Assembly (NCBI GenBank): GCA_016187945.1
Contig: JACPIT010000001.1
Location: forward strand, 310,001 to 374,000
Reading direction: 5' to 3'
Length of the DNA stretch: 64,000 nucleotides
Source: Opitutia bacterium
GTDB lineage: Bacteria; Verrucomicrobiota; Verrucomicrobiia; Opitutales; Opitutaceae
The translations under genes and the position numbers were made by a program. Below the pieces are notes generated by a model, which saw nothing but the letters and a program-made list of their open reading frames with translations, ran no database searches and was not told where the DNA came from. Below are positions 7,028 through 62,946 of the stretch, piece after piece (within the stretch, counting starts at the first letter, position 1; each line of letters begins with the position of its first letter).

Positions 7028-7121
7028 GTAGCGCCGGTCTCCGACCGGCGGCGTTGAACGCGACTCCCTGGTTTCGGCAGCGAGGGTTGGCTGAACTCCG
7101 CCGGTCAGAGACCCGCGCTAC
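7028..7121. repeat. REP-type inverted pair, family B
   Basis: Arms GTAGCGCCGGTCTCCGACC (from 7028) and the complementary, slightly decayed copy ending in CTAC at 7121. The right arm stops one base before the exbD stop codon at 7123. Same family as 33554-33647 and 34172-34194. Confidence 0.8.
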
Positions 7122-8210: not shown

Positions 8211-10169
8211 TCAGCGGCTTCTCCGCAGTTCGGCGGCGAGCCGGTCGAGTTCGCCTTCGATCTGGCTGCCCTTCTGCACGCGCAGCGTGCGGCGCGCGCG
8301 GTCGAGGGCGTTGAGGGCGTTCGCAATCTCGCCGCGCTGGCGCAGGTGCGCGACGAACGGTTGCACGATCTTGTCGAAGAAATCGATGCCCGCGCCGCTG
8401 CCGTAGGTATCAAGCAGGCGTTGATAGGTGCGAAACTGGGCTGAAGCGTCGTCGGACTGGAGACTGCGCTGGAGCATCTCGGCAGCCTGTTGGTAGCTCA
8501 GGTCGACACGATCGGCCTGGTATTTCTTCACGAGGCGCTGCTCCTCGACGGCCGCGACACTCGCTTCGCCGCGTTCGCGAAGGCTGGCGACCAGTTGGCG
8601 GCCGAACGCGACCTCGAGATCCGGATAGCGACCGAACGCGGTCATCGCCTCGCGCAACGTGCCTTCGCGCTCGCGCACGTCGACGGCGGCAGCCTTCTGC
8701 GCGGCGAGGAGCACCTGCCACGCACGCAGGTTGCGCCGCTCGCGATTGACGGCCTCGCGCCCGGCGCGGACGGCAGCGGTCGCGTTGCCGATGCGGAGAT
8801 ACTCGGCCGCGAACGCGGCATGAATCTCCGAAAGCTGGAAAAGCGGCAGTGCACGGAAGCGCTCCGAAACGAACGCGAGTTCGTGATCGCTCATCTCGCG
8901 CCACGTCTGCGGATCGCGCACGAAACCGGCGACGAACTTCTGCTCGGCGTAACGACCGGCATCCATCACCCAGCCGGTCGGCGAAAGAAAACCGAACCAC
9001 GCGTGCCGCCCGTCGAGTCCGGCGCCACGGAAAAGCAGCGTCGGCGCGCCCCGCGCCTTGCCGACTTGCGCCGCGAAATACGCCTGATCGACACAGATGC
9101 CGCCGTCGCGGAGGATCGATTGCAGGGTGTAGTCGCGTCCGGGCCAGGTGAACTGATTGTTCGTCAGGCGATCCTTGCGGTAGCGGACCATGTCGTAGGC
9201 TTTCGCCAGTTCGGAGAGCGGCGGCGTGACGTTCTGCCGCGCCCAGACCAGCTCGGCGAACGGCGTGCTGGTATCGACGACGAACTTCAGCTCGCTCGCG
9301 GGCAGGCGCTTCAGCTTGTGCGCGGCGACGTTCGCGCGATCCAGTTTCGTCCAGTAATCGAACGCCGCCACCGGCTCCGGGAGGCGACGCGGTAGCAGCG
9401 CCGCGCTCACCTGCCCGTGCGGCCAATCGGGCGGCGGCGGCACGTCGTAGACGATGGCGATGGCGAGCGCGAGCGAAGCGTAGTCGGCGAAAGCCGCCGC
9501 GTTCGCAGTGTGGAGTTTTTGCAAAATCGAGAAGACGTCGATCGGGTTGTCTTGCTCGGAAAGCGTCGCGAAAAACTCCTGCGAGAACGCGACGTTGCCG
9601 ACGAGCCAGCGTTGCAGTTCGGGCGTGAGTTCGCCGCTCAACGAGCCGGGAGGCAGCGCGTAGCTGAGCGGCATGTTGGCGTGCGCGCCGCCGGCGGCTT
9701 CGATGCCGTGCAGCCAGTTTTCGAGCGCCTGCCGCCGCGGGGTGCCGAAGAGATGCGCCCAGCGGTAAAGCAAATACCACGGTGTCGCGCTACCGGGCTC
9801 GCGCTCGTAGGCAGCGAGAGCGGCGGCGCGCAGCGCGGGGACGGAGCGCCCCCAGCCTTCGCGCGCTGCGGAAGCGACGAGGGCGTCGAGTCGCGCGGCG
9901 GCGGGCGGACGCGCGAGCTCGTCGGCGGGGACGGCGGTGTCTTGCGCGCGGAGCGGCGCCGCCGCGAACAGCACGAGCACCGCCGCCCAGGCTTGCGCAA
10001 AACGGAGAGGCGGGCGTCGCTGTCCCTCGCGGCGCGCAGCGAGCGGTAGGGCCGGCTTCAGCCGGCCCAGGGCGGGTTGTGCTCGCGAGTCGGGCTCGCG
10101 AATGGGCGCGCTACTGGGCCGGCTGAAGCCGGCCCTACTGCCGGAGGGCGAGCGCGCGTCGATGGGCAC
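8211..10169 (-). CDS. Exported protein with transglutaminase-like domain and helical repeats; start unresolved
   Basis: Coding similarity is clear from about 10010 downwards: a signal-peptide-like stretch (LRFAQAWAAVLVLFAAAPLRAQ broken by A residues), a helical region, then a transglutaminase-like core with Cys in GGICVDQAYF, His in GRHAWFGF and Asp in WVMDAGRY, then TPR-like helices to the C-terminus. No ATG, GTG or TTG lies in frame between about 10045 and the signal peptide. The frame runs upstream through a REP pair (10046-10138), and the clpC terminator at 10206-10231 lies beyond that. The first in-frame GTG below the terminator (10169) is used here as the least bad start, but it would place about 50 repeat-derived residues before the signal. 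A REP insertion that displaced the original start is possible. The role is unknown; proximity to ExbBD suggests an envelope function. Confidence 0.7.
   Translation of the reverse strand: MPIDARSPSGSRAGFSRPSSAPIREPDSRAQPALGRLKPALPLAARREGQRRPPLRFAQAWAAVLVLFAAAPLRAQDTAVPADELARPPAAARLDALVASAAREGWGRSVPALRAAALAAYEREPGSATPWYLLYRWAHLFGTPRRQALENWLHGIEAAGGAHANMPLSYALPPGSLSGELTPELQRWLVGNVAFSQEFFATLSEQDNPIDVFSILQKLHTANAAAFADYASLALAIAIVYDVPPPPDWPHGQVSAALLPRRLPEPVAAFDYWTKLDRANVAAHKLKRLPASELKFVVDTSTPFAELVWARQNVTPPLSELAKAYDMVRYRKDRLTNNQFTWPGRDYTLQSILRDGGICVDQAYFAAQVGKARGAPTLLFRGAGLDGRHAWFGFLSPTGWVMDAGRYAEQKFVAGFVRDPQTWREMSDHELAFVSERFRALPLFQLSEIHAAFAAEYLRIGNATAAVRAGREAVNRERRNLRAWQVLLAAQKAAAVDVREREGTLREAMTAFGRYPDLEVAFGRQLVASLRERGEASVAAVEEQRLVKKYQADRVDLSYQQAAEMLQRSLQSDDASAQFRTYQRLLDTYGSGAGIDFFDKIVQPFVAHLRQRGEIANALNALDRARRTLRVQKGSQIEGELDRLAAELRRSR
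10046..10138. repeat. REP-type inverted pair, family C
   Basis: Arms GTAGGGCCGGCTTCAGCC and their complement ending CCCTAC at 10138, about 45 bases apart. A related single hairpin follows coaD at 52389-52411. It lies just upstream of the signal peptide of the transglutaminase-like gene. Confidence 0.85.
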
Positions 10170-22469: not shown

Positions 22470-22535
22470 GAGGTGGAACGCGTTGACCCCAACGCGCTCT
22501 CGCCCGAGCGCGTTGAGGTCAACGCGCTCCACCTC
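22470..22535. repeat. 66-bp palindromic element, family E (copy 1)
   Basis: Arms GAGGTGGAACGCGTTGACCC and complement, each containing an inner dyad around GCGTTGA/TCAACGC. A nearly identical copy is at 62881-62946. It lies between the start of the small kinase gene and the end of the thioesterase gene. Confidence 0.85.
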
Positions 22536-29615: not shown

Positions 29616-31301
29616 ATGACTCAATCGAAAATCGAGAATCGAAAATCGAAAATTCGCGAGGTTCGCGCCCCGCGCGGCCCCGAACGCACCTGCCAGACCT
29701 GGGCCGCCGAGGCCGCATTGCGCATGCTGCAAAACAACCTCGACCCCGAAGTCGCCGAGCGACCGCGCGACCTCGTCGTCTACGGCGGACGCGGCAAAGC
29801 CGCCCGCAACTGGGCGTGCTTCGATGCCATTCTCGCAACGCTGCCGAAGCTCGCGCCCGACGAAACGCTGCTCGTCCAATCCGGTAAACCCGTCGGCGTC
29901 GTGCGCACGCACGTCGACGCCCCGCGCGTGCTCATCGCCAACAGCAACATCGTCCCCGCTTGGGCGACGCAGGAGCGTTTCGACGACTTCGAGCGCCGCG
30001 GCCTCATGATGTTCGGCCAGATGACCGCCGGTTCGTGGATCTACATCGGCACGCAAGGCATCCTCCAAGGCACCTACGAGACCTTCGCCGAGTGCGGCCG
30101 CCAGCATTTCGGCGGATCGCTCGCCGGCCGTCTCTGCGTCACCGGCGGCTGCGGTGGCATGGGCGGCGCGCAACCGCTTGCGATCACGATGGCCGAAGGC
30201 ACCTGCCTCATCGCCGACGTCGACAAGTCGCGCCTCCAAAAACGCGTCCACGACCGCTACCTCGACGAGATCGCGCCGTCGCTCGATGAGGCGATTGATC
30301 GCGCCATGCTTTATTCGGAGCATCGCAAGGCGCTCAGCGTCGGCGTCGTCGCCAACGTCACCGATCTGCTCGAGCGCCTGCTTGCGCGCAAAATCCAGGT
30401 CGACGTGCTCACCGATCAGACTTCGGCGCACGACCCGCTCGTCGGTTACGTGCCGGTCGGCTACGACCTGAAAGCCGCCGCCAAGCTCCGCAAAGCCGAC
30501 CCGAAGAAATACCAGAAACTCTCGCTCGCCTCGATGGCCCGCCACGTGAAGGCGATGCTCAAGCTCCAGCAGCGCGGTGCGAAGACCTTCGATTACGGCA
30601 ACAACCTCCGCCAGCACGCGCTCAACCAAGGCGTGAAGCGCGCGTTCGATTTCCCGGGCTTCGTGCCCGCCTACATCCGCCCGCAATTCTGCCTCGGCCG
30701 CGGACCGTTCCGCTGGGTCGCGCTCTCCGGCGATCCGGCCGACATCGCCGCGACCGACCGCGCGATCATGGAGCTCTTCCCCGAGGACCAGGCGCTGCAC
30801 CGTTGGCTGAAAATGGCCGGCGAGCGCGTCGCGTTCCAAGGCCTGCCCGCGCGCATCTGCTGGCTCGGCCTCGGCGAACGTCACCGCGCCGGTTTGCTCT
30901 TCAACCAAATGGTCGCCGACGGCCGCGTGAAAGCGCCGATCGTCATCGGCCGCGACCACCTCGACTGCGGCTCCGTCGCCAGCCCCAACCGCGAAACCGA
31001 AGCGATGAAGGACGGCTCCGACGCCATCAGCGACTGGGCGATCTTGAACGCGATGGTGAACATCGCGAGCGGCGCGTCGTGGGTGAGTTTTCATCACGGC
31101 GGCGGCGTCGGCATCGGTTACAGTCAGCACGCGGGGCAAGTCATCGTCGCCGACGGAACCGCTGACGCCGCGCGCCGCCTCGAACGCGTGCTCACGAACG
31201 ACCCGATGATGGGCGTCTTCCGTCACGCCGACGCCGGCTACGAGCAAGCGCAAGACTGCGCCGGGCGCCTGAACGTCCCGATCCCGATGAGAAAACTGTA
31301 G
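29616..31301 (+). CDS. hutU: Urocanate hydratase
   Basis: 561 residues, converts urocanate to imidazolone propionate with tightly bound NAD+. Core similarity begins at [15 protein letters not shown] (about residue 14); conserved pieces include [34 protein letters not shown] and [14 protein letters not shown]. The first 13 residues ([13 protein letters not shown]) are the translation of a degenerate A-rich repeat (29620-29659), so the native N-terminus has been replaced or extended by a repeat. The TAG stop codon (29299 plus 2000, i.e. 31299-31301) is formed by the GTAG of a family A repeat. Second gene of the hut operon. Confidence 0.95.
29620..29659. repeat. Degenerate-word repeat arm inside the start of hutU
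   Basis: About four tandem variants of AATCGAAAATCGAG. The same words form inverted arms at 62235-62260 and 62352-62386. Here a single arm is read in frame as the HutU N-terminus. Confidence 0.8.
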
Positions 31302-31364
31302 GAGCGGCTTTACGCCGCGACTGCAACGCACCCGAAGCCATCGCGGCGTAAAGCCGCTCCTACA
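31297..31364. repeat. REP-type inverted pair, family A, overlapping the hutU stop
   Basis: Arms TGTAGGAGCGGCTTTACGCC and the complement ending GCTCCTACA. The TAG at 31299-31301 serves as the hutU stop. Nearly identical to the copy at 358-433. Confidence 0.9.
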
Positions 31365-32342: not shown

Positions 32343-33557
32343 ATGCCCTCCCTTCTCTTCCGCAACGCCCGCCTCCTCACCCTCGCGCTCCCCGGCCAGA
32401 CCGGTCCGCGCCGCGGCAAAGCCCTTCGCGAACTCGGCGTGCTTCCGCACGGCGAGGTGCTCGTCGCCGACGGCAAGATAGCCGCTGTCGCCGAAAAGGT
32501 CGACGCGCCCGCCGACGCCGAATTGATCGACGCGGCCGGGCGCGTGCTGATGCCGGGTTTCGTCGATTGCCACACGCACGCCTGCTGGGCCGGCGACCGC
32601 CTCGACGAGTGGGAGAAGAAACTCAACGGCGTTCCCTATCTCGACATCCTGAAAGCCGGCGGCGGCATCTACGCCACTGTCCGCGCTGTCCGCGAAGCCA
32701 CGCAGAAGCAGCTCGCCGCCTCGTTGCGCGAGCGCCTCACCGAAATGCTCCGCGGCGGCACGACCACCGTCGAGGTGAAGAGCGGCTACGGACTGAACAC
32801 CGAGGCAGAGTTAAAGATGCTCCGCGCCATCCGCCGTGCCGCGAGCGACTGGTCTGGCACCGTCGTCGCCACTGCGCTGCTCGGTCACGCCACCGAAGGC
32901 GATGTCGAGGACTACTCGCGCATGGTCACGAAGGAAATGCTCGCGGAAGTCTCACGCGAATTTCCCGACATCGCCGTCGACGCCTTCTGCGAGAAGGAAG
33001 CCTGGACCGTCGAGGCCTGCGTGCGGTTCTTCGAGAAAGCGCGCAAGCACCACCCGATCCGCGTGCACACCGACCAATTCAATTCGCTCGGGATGATTCC
33101 CGAGGCGATCCGGCTGCACGCGCGCAGCGTCGATCACCTCGAGGCCGCGTCGAAGAACGACCTGACCGCGCTCGCCGAGTCGAACACCTTCGGCGTCGTC
33201 CTGCCGTGCACCGGGCTGCACACCGACCAGCGTTTTGCCAAAGCCGGATTCTTCGCCGATCGCGGCGGCGCGCTCGCGCTCGCGACGAACTGCAATCCCG
33301 GCTCCTCTCCCACGCACTCGATGCCGCTGGCGATCGCGCTTGCGGTGCGCTTCTGCGGTCTGTTGCCGGCGGAGGCGATCGTCGCCGCAACCTACAACCC
33401 TGCGCAACTGCTCGGCTTAACCGACCGCGGCTCGATCGAAGTCGGCAAGCGCGCCGACCTGCTGTTGCTCCGTCACAAAGACGAACGTCAACTCGCCTAC
33501 GAACTCGGCGGGAATCCGGTGGACGTCGTAGTGTGCGGTGGCGCGCGCGTGCAGTAG
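32343..33557 (+). CDS. hutI: Imidazolonepropionase
   Basis: 404 residues, amidohydrolase-superfamily metalloenzyme opening the imidazolone ring to formiminoglutamate. Zn site HTHACWAGDR near residue 80; GGGTTTVEVKSGYGLN; VDHLEAASKNDL; LATNCNPGSSPTHSMP with the conserved Asn-Pro-Gly-Ser block. Length matches the family. Last gene of the hut operon. Leader ends CCATTTTTCCG. Its TAG stop (33555-33557) is provided by the GTAG of the family B repeat that follows. Confidence 0.96.
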   Translation: MPSLLFRNARLLTLALPGQTGPRRGKALRELGVLPHGEVLVADGKIAAVAEKVDAPADAELIDAAGRVLMPGFVDCHTHACWAGDRLDEWEKKLNGVPYLDILKAGGGIYATVRAVREATQKQLAASLRERLTEMLRGGTTTVEVKSGYGLNTEAELKMLRAIRRAASDWSGTVVATALLGHATEGDVEDYSRMVTKEMLAEVSREFPDIAVDAFCEKEAWTVEACVRFFEKARKHHPIRVHTDQFNSLGMIPEAIRLHARSVDHLEAASKNDLTALAESNTFGVVLPCTGLHTDQRFAKAGFFADRGGALALATNCNPGSSPTHSMPLAIALAVRFCGLLPAEAIVAATYNPAQLLGLTDRGSIEVGKRADLLLLRHKDERQLAYELGGNPVDVVVCGGARVQ

Positions 33558-33647
33558 CGCCGGTCTGTGACCGGCGAGTGAGAACTCCGTTTGCAGATCC
33601 CGGCACGCGAGCGCGGCTTCATTTCGCCGGTCACAGACCGGCGCTAC
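33554..33647. repeat. REP-type inverted pair, family B, between convergent hutI and MaoC genes
   Basis: Arms GTAGCGCCGGTCTGTGACC and complement ending GCGCTAC. The left arm supplies the hutI stop; the right arm ends two bases before the stop of the minus-strand MaoC gene. The intergenic space is entirely repeat. Confidence 0.9.
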
Positions 33648-42378: not shown

Positions 42379-42786
42379 ACGGCGTGAAAACGCAGCACCG
42401 CGCCGGCGGGACGGATCGATCGCTGGGATTGGCGACGAGTCAGCGGGGCGCGTCGCGGAACACTCACCGCCGCGACCGGTCCACGGGCGACGATTCTCCT
42501 GCTTTGGGCGAACTCCCGAATGCATGGCGTGCGTTGCATGTCAGAAGCATAGCGGCTCTTTGAGGCTGCGGACATCGGGCTGACCTCCCGTTGCGCGCAC
42601 CGGCGGAGCCTTTGGGAAATTCCCCGACGCCGACTCGGGCGAAGCCGGATGCGAGCGGCGAGCGCCGCGGGCGGGGTTTTGGCGGCGCGCTTGCAGGACA
42701 GGCGACGCGCGGGGCGAGCGGAGGCGGGCGGACGCTTTTTTTGCCGACTGACGTCGGCTGCTACGAGACGGAGCGTGCGGGGCCGC
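42379..42786. other. Intergenic region with one REP hairpin
   Basis: 408 bases without a credible gene. It contains one REP hairpin at 42743-42764 (GCCGACTGACGTCGGCTGC then TAC), of the family that flanks the RAYT gene at 56.1-56.7 kb. The remainder is GC-rich with no other recognisable element; the retropepsin promoter should be at its left end. Confidence 0.6.
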
Positions 42787-49927: not shown

Positions 49928-49989
49928 GTAGCGGAATTCGTGAGAATTTCGCGGCCTCTCGAGCGCGAAAGCCTCACGGCTTCCGCTAC
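49928..49989. repeat. REP-type inverted pair, family G
   Basis: Arm GTAGCGGAATTCGTGAGAAT and complementary-type arm AAAGCCTCACGGCTTCCGCT ending in AC; hairpins are imperfect. It lies between the convergent outer-membrane protein and pgpA genes, ending five bases before the pgpA stop. Confidence 0.7.
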
Positions 49990-52593: not shown

Positions 52594-55500
52594 ATGCGCG
52601 CCATGCAACTTCGCCCGAACCTGCATCGCGTGTTCCTCTTCGCGCTGACCACGCTCCTCGCCCTCACCGCCCGCGCCGACGGCACGCCCGGCTACTGCCG
52701 CTTCCCCACGATTCACGGCGACACGATCGTCTTCACCGCCGAGGGCGATCTCTGGCGCGCGTCGCTCAACGGCGGCGCCGCACAACGCCTCACCTCGCAC
52801 GCCGGCTACGAGACCAACGCCGCCATCTCGCCCGACGGCCAGCAAGTCGCCTTCTCCGCGCAATACGAGGGCCCGACCGAAGTCTACGTCATGCCGCTCG
52901 CCGGCGGTCTCCCGAAGCGCCTCACGTTCGAAGGCGAGGCCGCGCTCGTCCGCGGCTGGACACCCGACGGCAAAGTTCTCTACGCCACACGCGCCTTCGC
53001 GACGATCCCCGACAACCAACTTGTCGCCATCGACCCGAAGACCGGCGCGCGCACGTTCGTGCCGCTCGCGCAAGCCGACGAGGGCGCCTACTCGCCCGAC
53101 GCCAAGACGCTCGTCTTCACCCGCTACTCGTTCCAAGGCTCGCACGCCAAACGCTACGTCGGCGGCACCGCGCAAAACCTCTGGCGCTTCGACGCCGGCG
53201 CGCCCGAAGCGACGCAATACGCTTCCGACTTCCGCGGCGTCAGTCGCTGGCCGATGTGGCTCGGCGACCGCATCTACTTCGCCAGCGAGCGCGACGGCAC
53301 GAGCAATCTCTGGTCGATGAAAACCGACGGCTCCGACCTGCGCCAGCACACGCGCCACGCCGACTACGGCGTGAAGAACCCGCAGGGCCACGGCACGCAC
53401 ATCGTCTACCAAAACGGCGCCGACCTGTGGTTCTACGACACGACCACCGACCAGACGCACCGCCTCGACCTCACGCTCACCTCCGACTTCGACCAGACGC
53501 GCGAGACGTGGGTCACGAAGCCAATGGACTTCGTCACGAACTTCGCGCTCTCGCCCGACGGCGACCGCATGGCGCTCGTCGCGCGCGGCCAGGTCTTCGT
53601 CGCGCCCGCAAGCCAGGGCCGCCTCGTCGAAGTGGCGCGCAAGAGCGGCGTGCGCTACCGCTCCGTCAGTTTCACCCCGGACGGCAAATCCGTCGTCGTG
53701 CTCTCCGACGAGTCGGGCGAAGTCGAATTCTGGAAACTCCCCGCGAACAACCGCGGCGCTGCCGAGCAGCTGACGAAAGGCGGCGAGACCCTCCGCATGA
53801 CCGGCCTGCTCTCGCCCGACGGCAAATGGATCGCCTACACCGAACGCGACAACGACCTGCTCGTTTTCAACCTCGAGACGAAGGAAACCAAACTCGTCGC
53901 GCACTCGAATTTTCAGGACTTCATCAGCCCCGACCTCGACTGGTCGCCCGACGGCAAGTGGCTCGCCTACGCGCTCAGCGCCGAAACCGGCAATACGCAG
54001 ATCCAGCTCTACGGCGTCAACACCGCGAAATCGACGCCCGTCACGAGCGAACGCGTGATCAGCAGCAGCCCCGCGTTCTCGCCCGACGGGAAATGGCTGT
54101 ATTTCCTCTCCGACCGCGAATTCAAATCGCTCGTCGGCGCGCCGTGGGGTCCGCGCCAGCCCGAGCCGTTCCTCGACAAGCCCACGAAAATCTACCTCCT
54201 CGCGCTCGACGACGAGAAGCGCTCGCCCTTCCAGCCCAGCGACGAGCTCTACGCCGAAGAGAAGAAGGCGAAGGACGAAAAGAAATCCGACGACGACAAA
54301 CCGGCGCCCGACGACAAAAATGGAGGGCCGAGCTCCCGCGAGGCCGCGAACGCGGCGCCCGCCAAGACAGCCGACGCATCCACCGCAAAAACCGATGACG
54401 CCGCCAAGAAAGCAAACGGTGACAAGAAACCCGCCGACGACAAAAAGAAGAAAATCGAAGTGAAGGTCGCGCTCGACGGCATCGCCGACCGCCTCTGGGA
54501 AGTCCCCGTCGGTCCCGGCAACTACGGCAACCTCACCGTGAACGACAAAGCCGTATTCGTGACCGACGCCGATGCCGGCGCCGACGGCCCGAACTCGAAC
54601 CGTCTCCTCGCGATCGAAATCAAAAACAAGGATGTCGAGACCACGACCGTGCTCGGCGGCATCGGCGGCTACCGCCTCGCGCTCGACGGCAAGAAGCTGC
54701 TCGTTCGCCAGACAGACAGCTTCGCGATCATCGACGCCGCGCCGCGCCCCGCGAGCGACGTCGCGAAGTCGCGCGTCAACCTCGGCGCGCTCCGTTTTCC
54801 CTACGCGCCGCGCGAGACCTGGCGCCAGATGTTCACCGACGCGTGGCGCCTGCACCGCGATTATTTCTACGCGAAAAACATGCACGGCGTCGACTGGCGC
54901 GCCAACCTCGACAAGCACCTCCCGCTCGTCGATCGCGTCACCGACCGCGCCGAACTCGACGACGTGCTCAACTACATGATCAGCGAACTCTCCGCGCTGC
55001 ACACCGACGCGCGCGGCGGCGTTGTTCGCGAGATCGAACCGCAGATCGCCGTCGCCTCGCTCGGCGCCCGCTGGTCGCGCGACGAGGCCGCCGGCGGCTA
55101 TCGCCTCGACTACATCTATCAGAGCGACCCCGAGTTCCTCGAACGCCGCGGACCGCTCCTGAAGCCCGGCCTCGGTATCAAAGCAGGCGACGTGATCGTC
55201 GAGATCAACGGCACGCCGACGCTCGCCGTGCCCGACGCCGCCGCGCTCTTGCGCAACCAGGCCAACCGCCAGGTGCTGCTCACGTTGAAGCCCGCGAACG
55301 GCGGCGAGTTGTTCTCGCGCGTCGTCGCGCCCGTGAGCCCGGCAGCGGCCGCCGGCCTCCGCTACACCGATTGGGAATACACGCGCCGTCTCGAGGTGGA
55401 CAAAAAGTCCGCCGGCGCGATCGGCTACGCACACATCCGCGCGATGGGCACGGACAACTACTACGAATTTGTCCGCCAATACTACGCCGTGGCCAACAAG

Positions 55501-56046
55501 GGCGGTCTCATCCTCGATCTGCGCCACAACCGCGGCGGCAACATCGACAGTTGGATGGTCTCGCGCCTGATGCGCCCCGCGTGGATGTGGTGGAGCACGC
55601 GCGACGGCGTGCCGTTCCCGCATCTGCAAAGCGCGTTTCGCGGCCACCTCGTCGTGCTCGTCGACGCCTGGACCGCTTCCGACGGCGAGACGATGGCCAA
55701 CGCGATCCGTCACCTGAAACTCGGCGACACGCTCGGCGTGCGCACCTGGGGCGGCGGCATTTGGCTCAGCGGTTCGAATTTCCTCGTCGACCGCGGCCTC
55801 GCGCGCGCGGCGGAGTTCGGTTCGTTCATCCCCGGCGAAGGCTGGGTGATCGAAGGCGACGGCTTCACGCCCGACATCCTCGTCGACAACAACCCCGCCC
55901 GCGCCTTCCGCGGCGAGGACGCCCAACTCGAAGCCGCGATCAAGCGCCTGCAAGAACTGATCGCGAAAAACCCGAAGCACCTCGCCCCCACGCCGCCCCC
56001 GCTGCCGGACAAGACGGTGAAATCATGGAGGACGCCGGGAAACTGA
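52594..56046 (+). CDS. Tricorn protease homologue (S41 family)
   Basis: 1150 residues, exported (signal segment FLFALTTLLALTARA). Beta-propeller repeats with SPDG-type turns occupy about residues 30-550, a long charged linker of Lys/Asp/Ala (about 555-625), then the tricorn core with catalytic His764 (NMHGVDW), a PDZ (about 800-870) and the S41 serine Ser1029 in AWTASDGETMAN. Such enzymes degrade peptides released by other proteases. The linker contains a REP-like sequence at 54321-54348, in frame. The first Met (52594) or the second (52603) could be the start. Neighbouring S9 and S10 peptidases support a peptide-degradation role. Confidence 0.93.
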   Translation: MRAMQLRPNLHRVFLFALTTLLALTARADGTPGYCRFPTIHGDTIVFTAEGDLWRASLNGGAAQRLTSHAGYETNAAISPDGQQVAFSAQYEGPTEVYVMPLAGGLPKRLTFEGEAALVRGWTPDGKVLYATRAFATIPDNQLVAIDPKTGARTFVPLAQADEGAYSPDAKTLVFTRYSFQGSHAKRYVGGTAQNLWRFDAGAPEATQYASDFRGVSRWPMWLGDRIYFASERDGTSNLWSMKTDGSDLRQHTRHADYGVKNPQGHGTHIVYQNGADLWFYDTTTDQTHRLDLTLTSDFDQTRETWVTKPMDFVTNFALSPDGDRMALVARGQVFVAPASQGRLVEVARKSGVRYRSVSFTPDGKSVVVLSDESGEVEFWKLPANNRGAAEQLTKGGETLRMTGLLSPDGKWIAYTERDNDLLVFNLETKETKLVAHSNFQDFISPDLDWSPDGKWLAYALSAETGNTQIQLYGVNTAKSTPVTSERVISSSPAFSPDGKWLYFLSDREFKSLVGAPWGPRQPEPFLDKPTKIYLLALDDEKRSPFQPSDELYAEEKKAKDEKKSDDDKPAPDDKNGGPSSREAANAAPAKTADASTAKTDDAAKKANGDKKPADDKKKKIEVKVALDGIADRLWEVPVGPGNYGNLTVNDKAVFVTDADAGADGPNSNRLLAIEIKNKDVETTTVLGGIGGYRLALDGKKLLVRQTDSFAIIDAAPRPASDVAKSRVNLGALRFPYAPRETWRQMFTDAWRLHRDYFYAKNMHGVDWRANLDKHLPLVDRVTDRAELDDVLNYMISELSALHTDARGGVVREIEPQIAVASLGARWSRDEAAGGYRLDYIYQSDPEFLERRGPLLKPGLGIKAGDVIVEINGTPTLAVPDAAALLRNQANRQVLLTLKPANGGELFSRVVAPVSPAAAAGLRYTDWEYTRRLEVDKKSAGAIGYAHIRAMGTDNYYEFVRQYYAVANKGGLILDLRHNRGGNIDSWMVSRLMRPAWMWWSTRDGVPFPHLQSAFRGHLVVLVDAWTASDGETMANAIRHLKLGDTLGVRTWGGGIWLSGSNFLVDRGLARAAEFGSFIPGEGWVIEGDGFTPDILVDNNPARAFRGEDAQLEAAIKRLQELIAKNPKHLAPTPPPLPDKTVKSWRTPGN
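54321..54348. repeat. REP-type element inside the tricorn linker, family F
   Basis: TGGAGGGCCGAGCTCCCGCG then AGGCCGCG. It resembles the right half of the element at 32281-32334 (TGGAGGGCTCAGCTCCTGCT on the other strand). It encodes GGPSSREAA within the charged linker. Confidence 0.6.
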
Positions 56047-56062: not shown

Positions 56063-56121
56063 CAGCCGTCTCACGACGGCTGCTACGAAATTCGCCCGTA
56101 GCAGCCGACGTTAGTCGGCTG
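56063..56121. repeat. REP-type inverted pair, family H, at the 3' end of the RAYT gene
   Basis: Arms CAGCCGTCTCACGACGGCTG ending CTAC and GTAGCAGCCGACGTTAGTCG ending GCTG. The second arm contains the last codons and the stop of the RAYT gene. Same family as 56727-56782 and 42743-42764. Confidence 0.88.
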
Positions 56122-56695
56122 TCTTCGTCTGCATTTTACCCGGACGTCCGCGCGCAACGCACGCATTGTAGATCGCCCAGAACCGCTCCCAAAACTCCGG
56201 CACGCGTGGATCGAGTCTTGGATACCCTGGAACGATGCAACCGCTGAAACGCCAGTCCTCGCGTCGAGAGCAGAGCGCAGCGCGCACCGGGTTTTCGAGG
56301 ACGTATGCGCACGTCGCGACAAACGCCCCGCGTTGCCGCTCCGCTTCTTTCAATACATGATCGTGCGGTTGATGTTGGAGCTTCGCGGTCGAAAAACTTG
56401 GCGCCAACGTTTCGCGCAAGAATCGTGTCGCCACGCGCTGATCCGACTCTTCCGCCACGCCCATCCAAAGCAGATGCAGGTGATCGGGCATCAGCACGTA
56501 TACCGGACAGAGCAATTGCTCACGCACGGCCGCGTGCAACATCGTCTCGCGAAACGCGGCGTGAAAGCACTCGTCCAGCCAGCCGGTCGCGCGAAGCGCG
56601 ACGGTGTGCGTCCAAAAAACGATCGCCTGGCCGCGGTAGTGCTCTACCGGCAGACGCGGCAGGTAGCCGCGCGGCGTGTTCGGTTGCGAGTTCAT
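56111..56695 (-). CDS. REP-associated tyrosine transposase (RAYT, Y1_Tnp family)
   Basis: 194 residues, HUH-type Y1 single-strand transposase related to IS200. Metal-binding His72-Leu-His74 in VLMPDHLHLLWMG and the catalytic Tyr131 in CAYVLENPVRAAL. RAYTs act on short palindromic repeats carrying a GTAG tetranucleotide rather than forming ordinary insertion sequences. The gene is flanked by paired repeats of a single family on both sides (56063-56121 and 56727-56782), and its stop codon lies in one of them. It is intact, without frameshift. The domesticated family name TnpA-REP also applies. Confidence 0.92.
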   Translation of the reverse strand: MNSQPNTPRGYLPRLPVEHYRGQAIVFWTHTVALRATGWLDECFHAAFRETMLHAAVREQLLCPVYVLMPDHLHLLWMGVAEESDQRVATRFLRETLAPSFSTAKLQHQPHDHVLKEAERQRGAFVATCAYVLENPVRAALCSRREDWRFSGCIVPGYPRLDPRVPEFWERFWAIYNACVARGRPGKMQTKTAD

Positions 56696-56726
56696 GAGCC
56701 AGTTGTGCCTCCTTCGTGTGTTTTTT

Positions 56727-56782
56727 CAGCCTCCTCACGTCGGCTGCTACTTCGCTTCGTAGCAGCCGACGTAAGGAGGCTG
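56727..56782. repeat. REP-type inverted pair, family H, upstream of the RAYT gene
   Basis: Arms CAGCCTCCTCACGTCGGCTG ending CTAC and GTAGCAGCCGACGTAAGGAG ending GCTG, nine bases apart. It lies 32 bases before the RAYT start. Confidence 0.88.
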
Positions 56783-56827: not shown

Positions 56828-58435
56828 TCACTTCCCTTTCTGCCCATCCAGCGTCGCCCGTATCCATTTGCTGAAGTCCGCCTTCAGCTTCTTCAGCGAG
56901 TCGACGTGCGTATACATCATGTGGCCGGCCTCGTAGTAGGTCATGGTGACGTTCTTCCGCACCGGCTCGGGCAGGTGCATGTGGCGAAACGTCCAATCCG
57001 TCGCGTAATACGGCGTCGCGAGATCGTAGTAGCCGTTCGCCACCCAGACCTTCATCGCGGGATTCCGCACCATCGCGTTCTTCAGCATCGCGCTCGTGTC
57101 GAGGTAGGTGTTTTCGACGTTCTTGTAGCTCCACGGCTGGACGTTCACGAGCACGCCGTAAGGCAGATCGGTTTCGAACTTCAGCACGTTGCGCGCGTAG
57201 TCGTTCATCGCCGCCGCGTAAGGCCCGCGGATCGCCTCCATGCTCGGATCGAAAAAATTGCCGCGCCCACCGCCCGGTCCGCCGTCGCCGTCGCCGCTCT
57301 CGTCGAGCACGCCGGTGATGCTGCTGTCGAGGCGGCCGACCACGATCCCCTCGTCGCGCCGCAGTTCGCGGATGAATTCCCCGATGCTCACGCGCAGGTT
57401 CTGCTTCTTCACGTAGTCGAGCGAGAGGCCGGTCAACGCCGCGAGCTCGGCCGCGATCGCGTCGCGGTCCGCCGCGGCGAGCGCATCGCCTTGCATGAGC
57501 GCCAGCGTGTAGTTGCGCGCCGCGAATTCCTCGGCGCGCTTCAACGCGCCCGCCAGCGTCTGCGCCCAATCGCCCTTGAGCCGTTTGTGATACCACGCCG
57601 TTGCCGTGTAGGTCGGCAGGAACAACGGATACGGGTCGTCGTTGCCCGGAGCGAAGCGCGCCGTCTGGAAATTCAGAATCGAGGACACGAGCATCACGCC
57701 GTTCACGTAGAGGTCGTATTTCTGCTGCAGCCGCTCGGAGAGCGCGCTGACGCGCGTGGTGCCGTAGCTCTCGCCGACGAGGAATTTCGGCGAGAGCCAG
57801 CGCGAGTTGCGCGTCGTCCATACCTGAATGAAGTCCGCGAGCGACTCGAGGTCGCCGGTGAAGCCGTGGAATTGTTTCGGATCCTGCTCCTTCGCCGCGC
57901 GGCTGAAGCCGCTCGACACCGGGTCCATGAACACGAGGTCCGTCTCGTCGAGCCACGAGCACGCGTTGTCCTCGTAACGATACGGCGCCGACACCGCGCC
58001 GCCGTTGTCGGTCATCACGACACGCTTCGGACCGAGTCCGCCGAGGTGCAGCCACACCGACGCCGCGCCGGGGCCGCCGTTGAACGAGAACGTCACCGGA
58101 CGTTTCGCCACGTCCTTCTCGTCCGCCTTCGTGTAGGCGACGTAGAAGATGTTCGCCTTCGGCGCGCCCTTCTCGTCGCGTTGCACGAGGTAGCCGGCGG
58201 TCGCCTTGTAGCGGACGACTTTGCCGCCGATCGTCACTTCGCCTTCGGTGACGGACGGCGTCGGATCTTTTTCGGGAGCGACCGTGGCTGCCGGTGCCGC
58301 CGGAGCGGGCTTCGGATCGGCTCCGGGGCCTTTGCGTTCGGCGTCGGCGGTTTTTTCTTTGGGTTGCTCCTGCGCCAGCGCGGCCACGGTCGCCGCCAAC
58401 ACCAGCGTGGAGAGGAGGTGCTTCAGGGATTTCAT
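56828..58435 (-). CDS. S10 family serine carboxypeptidase
   Basis: 535 residues, exported: signal segment LLSTLVLAATVAALA, then an Ala/Pro/Lys-rich linker. Catalytic Ser223 in VGESYGTTR, Asp in NGYYDLATPY (near 474) and His in YEAGHMMYTH (near 508); oxyanion stretch FNGGPGAASVWLHLGG. Removes C-terminal residues from peptides in the periplasm at mildly acidic pH in known relatives. The leader carries TTTTTTTCCGCGCACTCC before the ATG. Divergent from the macA-type gene. Confidence 0.93.
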   Translation of the reverse strand: MKSLKHLLSTLVLAATVAALAQEQPKEKTADAERKGPGADPKPAPAAPAATVAPEKDPTPSVTEGEVTIGGKVVRYKATAGYLVQRDEKGAPKANIFYVAYTKADEKDVAKRPVTFSFNGGPGAASVWLHLGGLGPKRVVMTDNGGAVSAPYRYEDNACSWLDETDLVFMDPVSSGFSRAAKEQDPKQFHGFTGDLESLADFIQVWTTRNSRWLSPKFLVGESYGTTRVSALSERLQQKYDLYVNGVMLVSSILNFQTARFAPGNDDPYPLFLPTYTATAWYHKRLKGDWAQTLAGALKRAEEFAARNYTLALMQGDALAAADRDAIAAELAALTGLSLDYVKKQNLRVSIGEFIRELRRDEGIVVGRLDSSITGVLDESGDGDGGPGGGRGNFFDPSMEAIRGPYAAAMNDYARNVLKFETDLPYGVLVNVQPWSYKNVENTYLDTSAMLKNAMVRNPAMKVWVANGYYDLATPYYATDWTFRHMHLPEPVRKNVTMTYYEAGHMMYTHVDSLKKLKADFSKWIRATLDGQKGK

Positions 58436-62873: not shown

Positions 62874-62946
62874 GTAGATCGAGGTGGAACGCGTTGACCC
62901 CAACGCGTTCTCGCGCGACCGCGTTGAGGTCAACGCGGTCCACCTC
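62874..62946. repeat. 66-bp palindromic element, family E (copy 2)
   Basis: Follows GTAG directly after the stop of the 93-residue gene; arms GAGGTGGAACGCGTTGACCC and complement ending CCACCTC. Almost identical to 22470-22535. Confidence 0.85.

Follow-up and report, generated by a model that had tools for sequence, protein, structure and literature searches.

The window, the 64-kb stretch of Opitutia bacterium DNA analysed here, contains an intact RAYT gene with a GTAG-tagged 24-nt palindrome on both sides, each time as an inverted pair with the tags on the inside, and we find that these palindromes belong to a dispersed repeat family (F4) that is cognate to the enzyme. It is highly probable that the gene encodes a RAYT of the TnpA-REP kind acting on its own REPs, that these have been copied round the genome as REPINs, and that they decay once the RAYT is lost. 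As far as the sequences go, the analysis establishes that the HUH/Y enzyme is intact and has the TnpA-REP fold, that its cognate family is dispersed and that the hairpin is conserved with compensatory changes, as well as the joint divergence of RAYTs and REPs and the existence of genomes that have the repeats but no RAYT. What had been observed in the original prediction is confirmed, while its interpretation is partly supported.

The RAYT gene and its flanking REPs

The RAYT ORF is intact from its ATG start to its TAA stop, and the protein has the HUH motif and single catalytic tyrosine (Tyr131, with N135 four residues on) from which a Y1 transposase had been predicted. H72 and H74 are present in all 38 aligned relatives, and Y131 and N135 are nearly invariant. 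The NCBIfam model NF047646 (REP_Tyr_transpos) matches the protein with an E value of 1e-12 and 48.1 bits, below the curated cut-off of 80; this is an equivalog model, and seven other RAYTs of the genome score above its cut-off. Pfam gave no match to the window RAYT, even at an E value of 10, and 11 of the 38 relatives match its Y1_Tnp family. A profile built from these relatives matched a single PDB entry at E values up to 0.1, the E. coli TnpA-REP with a REP hairpin (4ER8; E 2e-8), and the same entry was the best PDB fold for the AlphaFold model of the protein (pLDDT 89.5, pTM 0.85; E 2.4e-7, TM 0.70 by target). In the alignment to 4ER8, residues Q95, E100 and H101 of the E. coli enzyme, whose roles in tag contact are described by Quentin et al. 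(2018, PMC6006769), correspond to Q107, D112 and H113 of the window RAYT, and K116 is likewise aligned to a tag-contact position; an aspartate at the E100 position is described in the same paper for subclasses 2.5 and 2.7. Promoter and terminator scans found nothing close to the RAYT start. Together, the data support the assignment of the window gene as a RAYT of the TnpA-REP kind and of the flanking family as its own.

As predicted, the gene has on each side a pair of repeats of one family. The 14-nt core is exact in three of the four flanking REPs and has one mismatch in the fourth (at 56073-56086), and each REP carries its GTAG tag immediately 5' of the stem-loop. The gene carries a bulged REP pair upstream and a perfect pair downstream, and the stop codon, which had been placed within one pair, lies in the loop of a downstream hairpin (TAA, 56113-56111). 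The outermost REP on the 5' side of the RAYT (56759-56782) ends 31 nt short of the next REP-free stretch. The solitary copy that had been reported elsewhere in the window was also found (Table 1).

Table 1. Coordinates of the RAYT, its REPs and the neighbouring genes in the window
Feature	Position	Strand	Basis or folding
RAYT (TnpA-REP, Y1 HUH transposase), 194 aa; H72-L-H74, Y131, N135	56111..56695	-	ORF, NCBIfam, PDB profile, model
REP, perfect 8-bp stem, GTGA loop, GTAG tag	56063..56086	-	ssDNA fold -10 kcal/mol, z -5.3
REP, perfect 8-bp stem, GTTA loop with RAYT stop codon	56098..56121	+	-10 kcal/mol, z -5.6
REP, tandem G.A / A.G mismatch in stem	56727..56750	-	-4.1 kcal/mol, z -2.0
REP, tandem G.A / A.G mismatch in stem	56759..56782	+	-4.1 kcal/mol, z -1.75
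Downstream REP pair, tags inside, one long hairpin	56063..56121		-24.7 kcal/mol, z -7.4
Upstream REP pair, tags inside, one 24-bp hairpin	56727..56782		-29.4 kcal/mol, z -10.8
Solitary REP, same family, last two bases of 3' arm diverged	42743..42764	-	core search
Tricorn-like gene	52594-56046	+	neighbour of RAYT
Serine carboxypeptidase (S10) gene	56828-58435	-	neighbour of RAYT

The core family is dispersed and its hairpin is conserved

The window contains five matches to the core at up to two mismatches, compared to 0.73 expected, and none of 100 shuffles reached five. The original prediction had proposed a genome-wide count of the core, and the family proves far commoner than chance: the 5.47-Mb genome has 105 exact copies of the 14-nt core (50 forward and 55 reverse), while a reversed-core control has none. 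Eleven F4 pairs have their tags outside, 10 of them spaced 56-69 nt start to start (REPINs); the RAYT's own REP pairs, with tags inside, are opposite in orientation to most F4 pairs. Repeats that neighbour each other within 160 bp had their tags outside in 134 cases (127 distinct places) and were otherwise arranged in 7. In the largest family, F1, the spacer between paired repeats is 75% identical, compared to 48% in the outer flanks (228 comparisons), but in F4 both values are 42%, based on three comparisons only. Because the F4 spacer is not clearly conserved, pair-wise copying is better shown for F1 than for F4.

To describe the F4 stem we used 66 REP copies chosen on the tag, the 5' arm and the loop only, although the choice of 30 of the loci searched (L001-L030) by the exact core biases the stem types seen. 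Stem pairs 1-5 and 8 are formed in 59 to 66 of these copies. Pairs 6-7 are a tandem G.A/A.G mismatch in 34 copies, two standard pairs in 26 and neither in 6, and the 26 fully paired copies include the compensatory types GC, CG, AT and TA at these positions. Compensatory changes were found at stem pairs 5-8, and 177 of 216 cells were paired in the 27 distinct REP copies, compared to a mean of 161 and a maximum of 170 in 2000 shuffles. On this sequence evidence the F4 REP hairpin appears to be under selection. Outside the hairpin, C precedes the tag in 82% of 57 copies from the genome itself, and the next base out is T in 56%.

Twelve RAYTs, eleven of them with a repeat family of their own

A model search of the same genome identified 12 RAYT genes, and across the 864 kb compared, 11 of these adjoin repeated palindromes, each of a different family. 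The repeats lie on both sides in 10 cases and on one side only at L144, and there are none at L141. The best 15-mer of each RAYT-associated family is counted 3 to 64 times, with the counts at L143, L146 and L151 including the gene's own flanking repeats. By comparison, of 200,000 random 550-bp intervals, with the locus of the window RAYT included, 0.16% were flanked on both sides, within 200 bp, by repeats of one family. The largest repeat family, GTAGGAGCGGCTTTACGCCGC, has 79 copies in the 864 kb (up to 4 mismatches), and its RAYT lies at C15:188074-188469. Thus the suggestion that this locus would bear on what drives the other repeat families was well placed, since most have RAYTs of their own.

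The window RAYT is single-copy, its closest paralogue in the genome being 49% identical, and it does not have the several near-identical genome copies expected of an IS200/IS605 insertion sequence. Its GC3 is 0.71, compared to 0.87-0.88 in both neighbours; across all 12 RAYT genes GC3 ranges from 0.69 to 0.80.

A de novo census also found palindromic families that have no adjoining RAYT in this genome. One of these, F2 (GTAGCGCGGTGCTTCAGCC), has 165 copies at up to one mismatch (control, 0). We examined 29 RAYT matches in five F2-rich relatives and found two with F2 on both sides, one in G063 (131 F2 copies) and one in G127 (88 copies); in the other three genomes no RAYT had F2 on both sides. 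The two F2-flanked RAYTs are 54% identical to each other, and the nearest gene to them in the window's own genome is 43% identical and lies beside another repeat family. Hence F2, which lacks an enzyme in this genome, has one in relatives.

Twelve RAYTs and at least 11 families, one per enzyme in 11 cases, constitute a specificity panel outside the Proteobacteria, in which each RAYT can be tested on its own hairpins and on those of the others.

RAYTs and REPs diverge together among relatives

A relative of the window RAYT is present in 69 of 200 family genomes at an E value of 1e-5, and at least 171 of the 200 have some RAYT at this threshold, when no more than 18 candidates were scored in each genome. 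Tagged hairpins of their own type flank nearly every full-length relative examined; among 56 intact records, 4 gave no call. The similarity of the RAYTs is correlated with that of their REPs (Mantel rho 0.41, 34 RAYTs, p 0.001, with none of 999 permutations above 0.18), in a comparison that ignores host relatedness and leaves out 17 of 51 loci, namely those with broken genes, three distant ones and those without a REP call of 22-27 nt. The apex C-G(N)NA-G is found in 51 of 60 RAYT-flanking REPs of relatives; across the wider clade this apex and a GTAG or GTGG tag appear to remain constant, while the stems drift with the enzyme.

The core itself has a narrower distribution. Only nine of the 200 family genomes have eight or more exact copies: the window's own genome (G000, 105), G059 (106), G141 (44), G043 (40), G017 (36), G125 (33), G156 (25), G124 (19) and G117 (8); 29 others have one or two. 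When one mismatch is allowed, the count in G124 is hardly above its control (31 versus 20), and the other core-rich genomes are clearly above theirs. A RAYT with the matching REP type at its flanks is found in G000, G059 and G043, that is, in 3 of the 9 core-rich genomes compared to 0 of the 191 others (Fisher p 6e-5, a test that covers only the loci fetched and ignores host relatedness). The original prediction would have failed had relatives with the repeats never had a RAYT; G043 and G059 carry the repeats together with the matching RAYT, although five of the nine core-rich genomes have neither a matching RAYT nor a remnant of one. Among the core-rich genomes, the RAYT of G117 is accompanied by REPs of another type, the RAYTs of G141 are all distant, and G017, G124 and G156 yielded no RAYT of any kind at an E value of 1e-5. 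Draft contigs end in such repeats (e.g. in G017), so a RAYT missing from an assembly need not have been lost. In G125 the intact RAYT is likewise accompanied by REPs of another type; a stump matching about the first 30 residues (L156, C109 ~1410-1590) lies at a different locus, directly after a decayed F4 pair whose tag has become GTAA. The series from intact RAYT to stump to no RAYT allows one to ask how fast REPs decay after loss of the enzyme. The nine other genomes of the same genus have 0-1 exact core copies, and a close RAYT was found in only two of them, G133 (52%) and G177 (44%, a broken gene), in each case beside other REPs.

How the repeats may spread

Most likely the RAYT recognises its REP in folded, single-stranded form through the GTAG tag and the hairpin, and Tyr131 in the HUH active site cuts beside the hairpin, after which the enzyme rejoins the ends. 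REP pairs with tags outside (REPINs) would be copied round the genome in this way over evolutionary time, with the RAYT staying single-copy, and where the RAYT is lost its REPs would remain and decay. Single-strand binding, tag-side cleavage and transposition are here attributed to the window enzyme by analogy with E. coli and Stenotrophomonas RAYTs, for which Corneloup et al. (2021, PMC8266576) describe recognition of the single-stranded REP by tag and hairpin and cutting beside it; on the same analogy, the window enzyme would be the one that moves the repeats.

It is rather unlikely that the enzyme is instead domesticated, that is, kept for a host function such as the processing of folded single-stranded DNA or RNA-level control via hairpins, with REP spread as a slow by-product. 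RAYTs are indeed near-universal in the family, the window RAYT is single-copy, its nearest paralogue being 49% identical, and its REP pairs form strong hairpins next to genes, one of them between two convergent genes, all of which would suit such a function. The window RAYT itself is nevertheless patchy, since most genomes of the genus lack a close relative and G125 has a stump, and the locus is without it in G040, G074 and G149.

These three loci also bear on whether the RAYT and its REPs form a unit. G040 and G074 have both neighbours (84-89% identical), with no RAYT between them; the interval between the tricorn-like and S10 genes, ~3.5 kb, instead has three other ORFs. Those ORFs (406, 182 and 499 aa at L250 3447-6741, and the same in L249) encode, at a guess, a porin, a sensor and a chemotaxis receptor, and are absent from the window and from an 800-kb sample of its genome. 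In G149 neither S10 nor the RAYT was found in the 8 kb examined, and the gene after the first neighbour is a different one, while the stretches from G201 and G116 are cut short by contig ends just past the first gene. Thus the RAYT unit is specific to the lineage of the window genome at this site. The description of the unit as self-contained fares less well: it is absent from the locus in the three same-genus genomes in which a neighbouring gene was found, yet none of the same-genus loci examined is a clean empty site, and the ORFs in G040 and G074 point to a replacement rather than a clean insertion.

We consider it very unlikely that the RAYT and its REPs together make up an IS200-like element able to move autonomously in one piece. 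The lineage specificity of the unit and its low GC3 relative to its neighbours would fit an element of this kind, as would the layout of RAYT loci, in which a RAYT between outward-facing, REPIN-like tags is the commonest arrangement (25 of the 48 loci at which both flanks had REP calls, compared to 12 expected under independent orientations; binomial p 5e-5). Against it, the genome has no second copy of the unit, the other 23 loci have other layouts, the site looks like a replacement, and REPtrons do not seem to move as a unit, according to Quentin et al. (2018, PMC6006769). A spread of the repeats by other means (through another RAYT or by gene conversion), with the RAYT no more than a bystander, is extremely improbable: repeats do persist in genomes without a RAYT of the window type, but 11 of 12 RAYTs have one family each, RAYTs and REPs diverge together, and, among the RAYT loci with flanks examined, the matching RAYT occurs in G000, G043 and G059 alone.

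Comparison with known RAYT-REP systems

Partnerships of this type were already known. The original prediction regarded the locus as an extension beyond the gammaproteobacteria, but GTAG repeats were already known from 8 phyla through the work of Di Nocera et al. (2013, PMC3733652), who found several families in Opitutus terrae (Verrucomicrobia) and describe repeat-specific 'REPtrons' in species with multiple families and tags-outside dimers as the usual form. Opitutus terrae is of the same bacterial class as the window genome and, in their description, resembles it in having several GTAG families per genome with repeat-specific REPtrons, intragenic copies and REP-supplied TAG stops. Similarly, the inverted doublets with tags outside are found genome-wide as REPINs in Pseudomonas fluorescens SBW25 (Bertels and Rainey 2011, PMC3116915), from which F4 differs in its variable spacers. 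RAYT and REP subclasses and their recognition are treated by Quentin et al. (2018, PMC6006769), Nunvar et al. (2010, PMC2817692) and Corneloup et al. (2021, PMC8266576); beyond the papers cited, a search of open-access journals found no further paper on repeats of this family. GTAG REPs in Verrucomicrobia, several families each with a RAYT, tags-outside dimers and TAG stops from REPs are therefore known from this literature, and what is added here is the census of 12 RAYTs, the F2 RAYTs in relatives, the RAYT-REP co-divergence, the REP-rich genomes without a RAYT and the mixed stems.

The window system shares features with both well-studied enzymes. Like the E. coli TnpA-REP (4ER8; group 2 / subclass 2.2), the enzyme has the HUH/Y fold, is paired with a GTAG-tagged hairpin, is flanked by its own REPs and conserves the tag-contact Q and H; it differs in having D112 at the position of E100 and L106 at that of W94, and the two are 17% identical in the Foldseek alignment. 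The short 8-bp stem is like that of REPtron Sm of Stenotrophomonas maltophilia (group 3), as is the aspartate at the E100 position, which is reported for subclass 2.5 (PMC6006769), but the loop is a 4-nt G-N-N-A in the window family and 3 nt in Sm. Corneloup et al. (2021, PMC8266576) report that the E. coli enzyme needs a bulged stem, the AA-GC bulge being obligatory in its REPs, and that the Stenotrophomonas enzyme needs a perfect one. In contrast, bulged and perfect copies occur together in the window family, with two mismatches in 34 of 66.

Because both stem types occur in one family with one cognate enzyme, both would be expected to be cut, guided by tag and loop; alternatively, one stem type may be a dead remnant. 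It is possible, although we put this forward tentatively, that the lineage of the window RAYT bridges the two recognition modes of TnpA-REP; if so, tag and loop define the substrate and the bulge is optional. One enzyme with group-3-like tag residues would then serve REPs that are about half bulged and half perfect. Such a mixed population allows one to ask what a RAYT reads.

Stop codons and other repeats of the window

The stop codons of the 56 intact RAYT records fall into classes (in a REP, 11; after a REP, 11; within 15 nt, 19; farther, 9; none, 6) that are rough, because the automated hairpin caller misplaces some REPs (e.g. at L053, L054 and L085). Twenty of these records have a TAG stop, preceded by G in 16, and in about ten it is the TAG of a GTAG tag; at L145 and L147 in the window's own genome, and in several RAYTs of the family, the stop is the TAG of the GTAG of the following REP. 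GTAG termini often provide flanking ORFs with their TAG stop, as described by Di Nocera et al. (2013, PMC3733652). We rejected translation control via a REP stop as a finding, since the subject is already in print in that paper and the stop of the window RAYT is a TAA in a loop.

A repeat of family F5 (TGGAGGGCCGAGCTCCCGCGAGGCCGCG) lies at 54320-54347, in frame within a lysine/aspartate-rich linker of the tricorn-like gene, and the stretch that it encodes is missing from five same-genus relatives, in a linker that aligns poorly. Inverted pairs of other families (F1, F6/F12, F10, F8 and F9), all with tags outside, are found in the window at 359-432, 7028-7121, 10046-10138, 22472-22533, 31298-31363, 33554-33647, 49928-49989 and 62883-62944.
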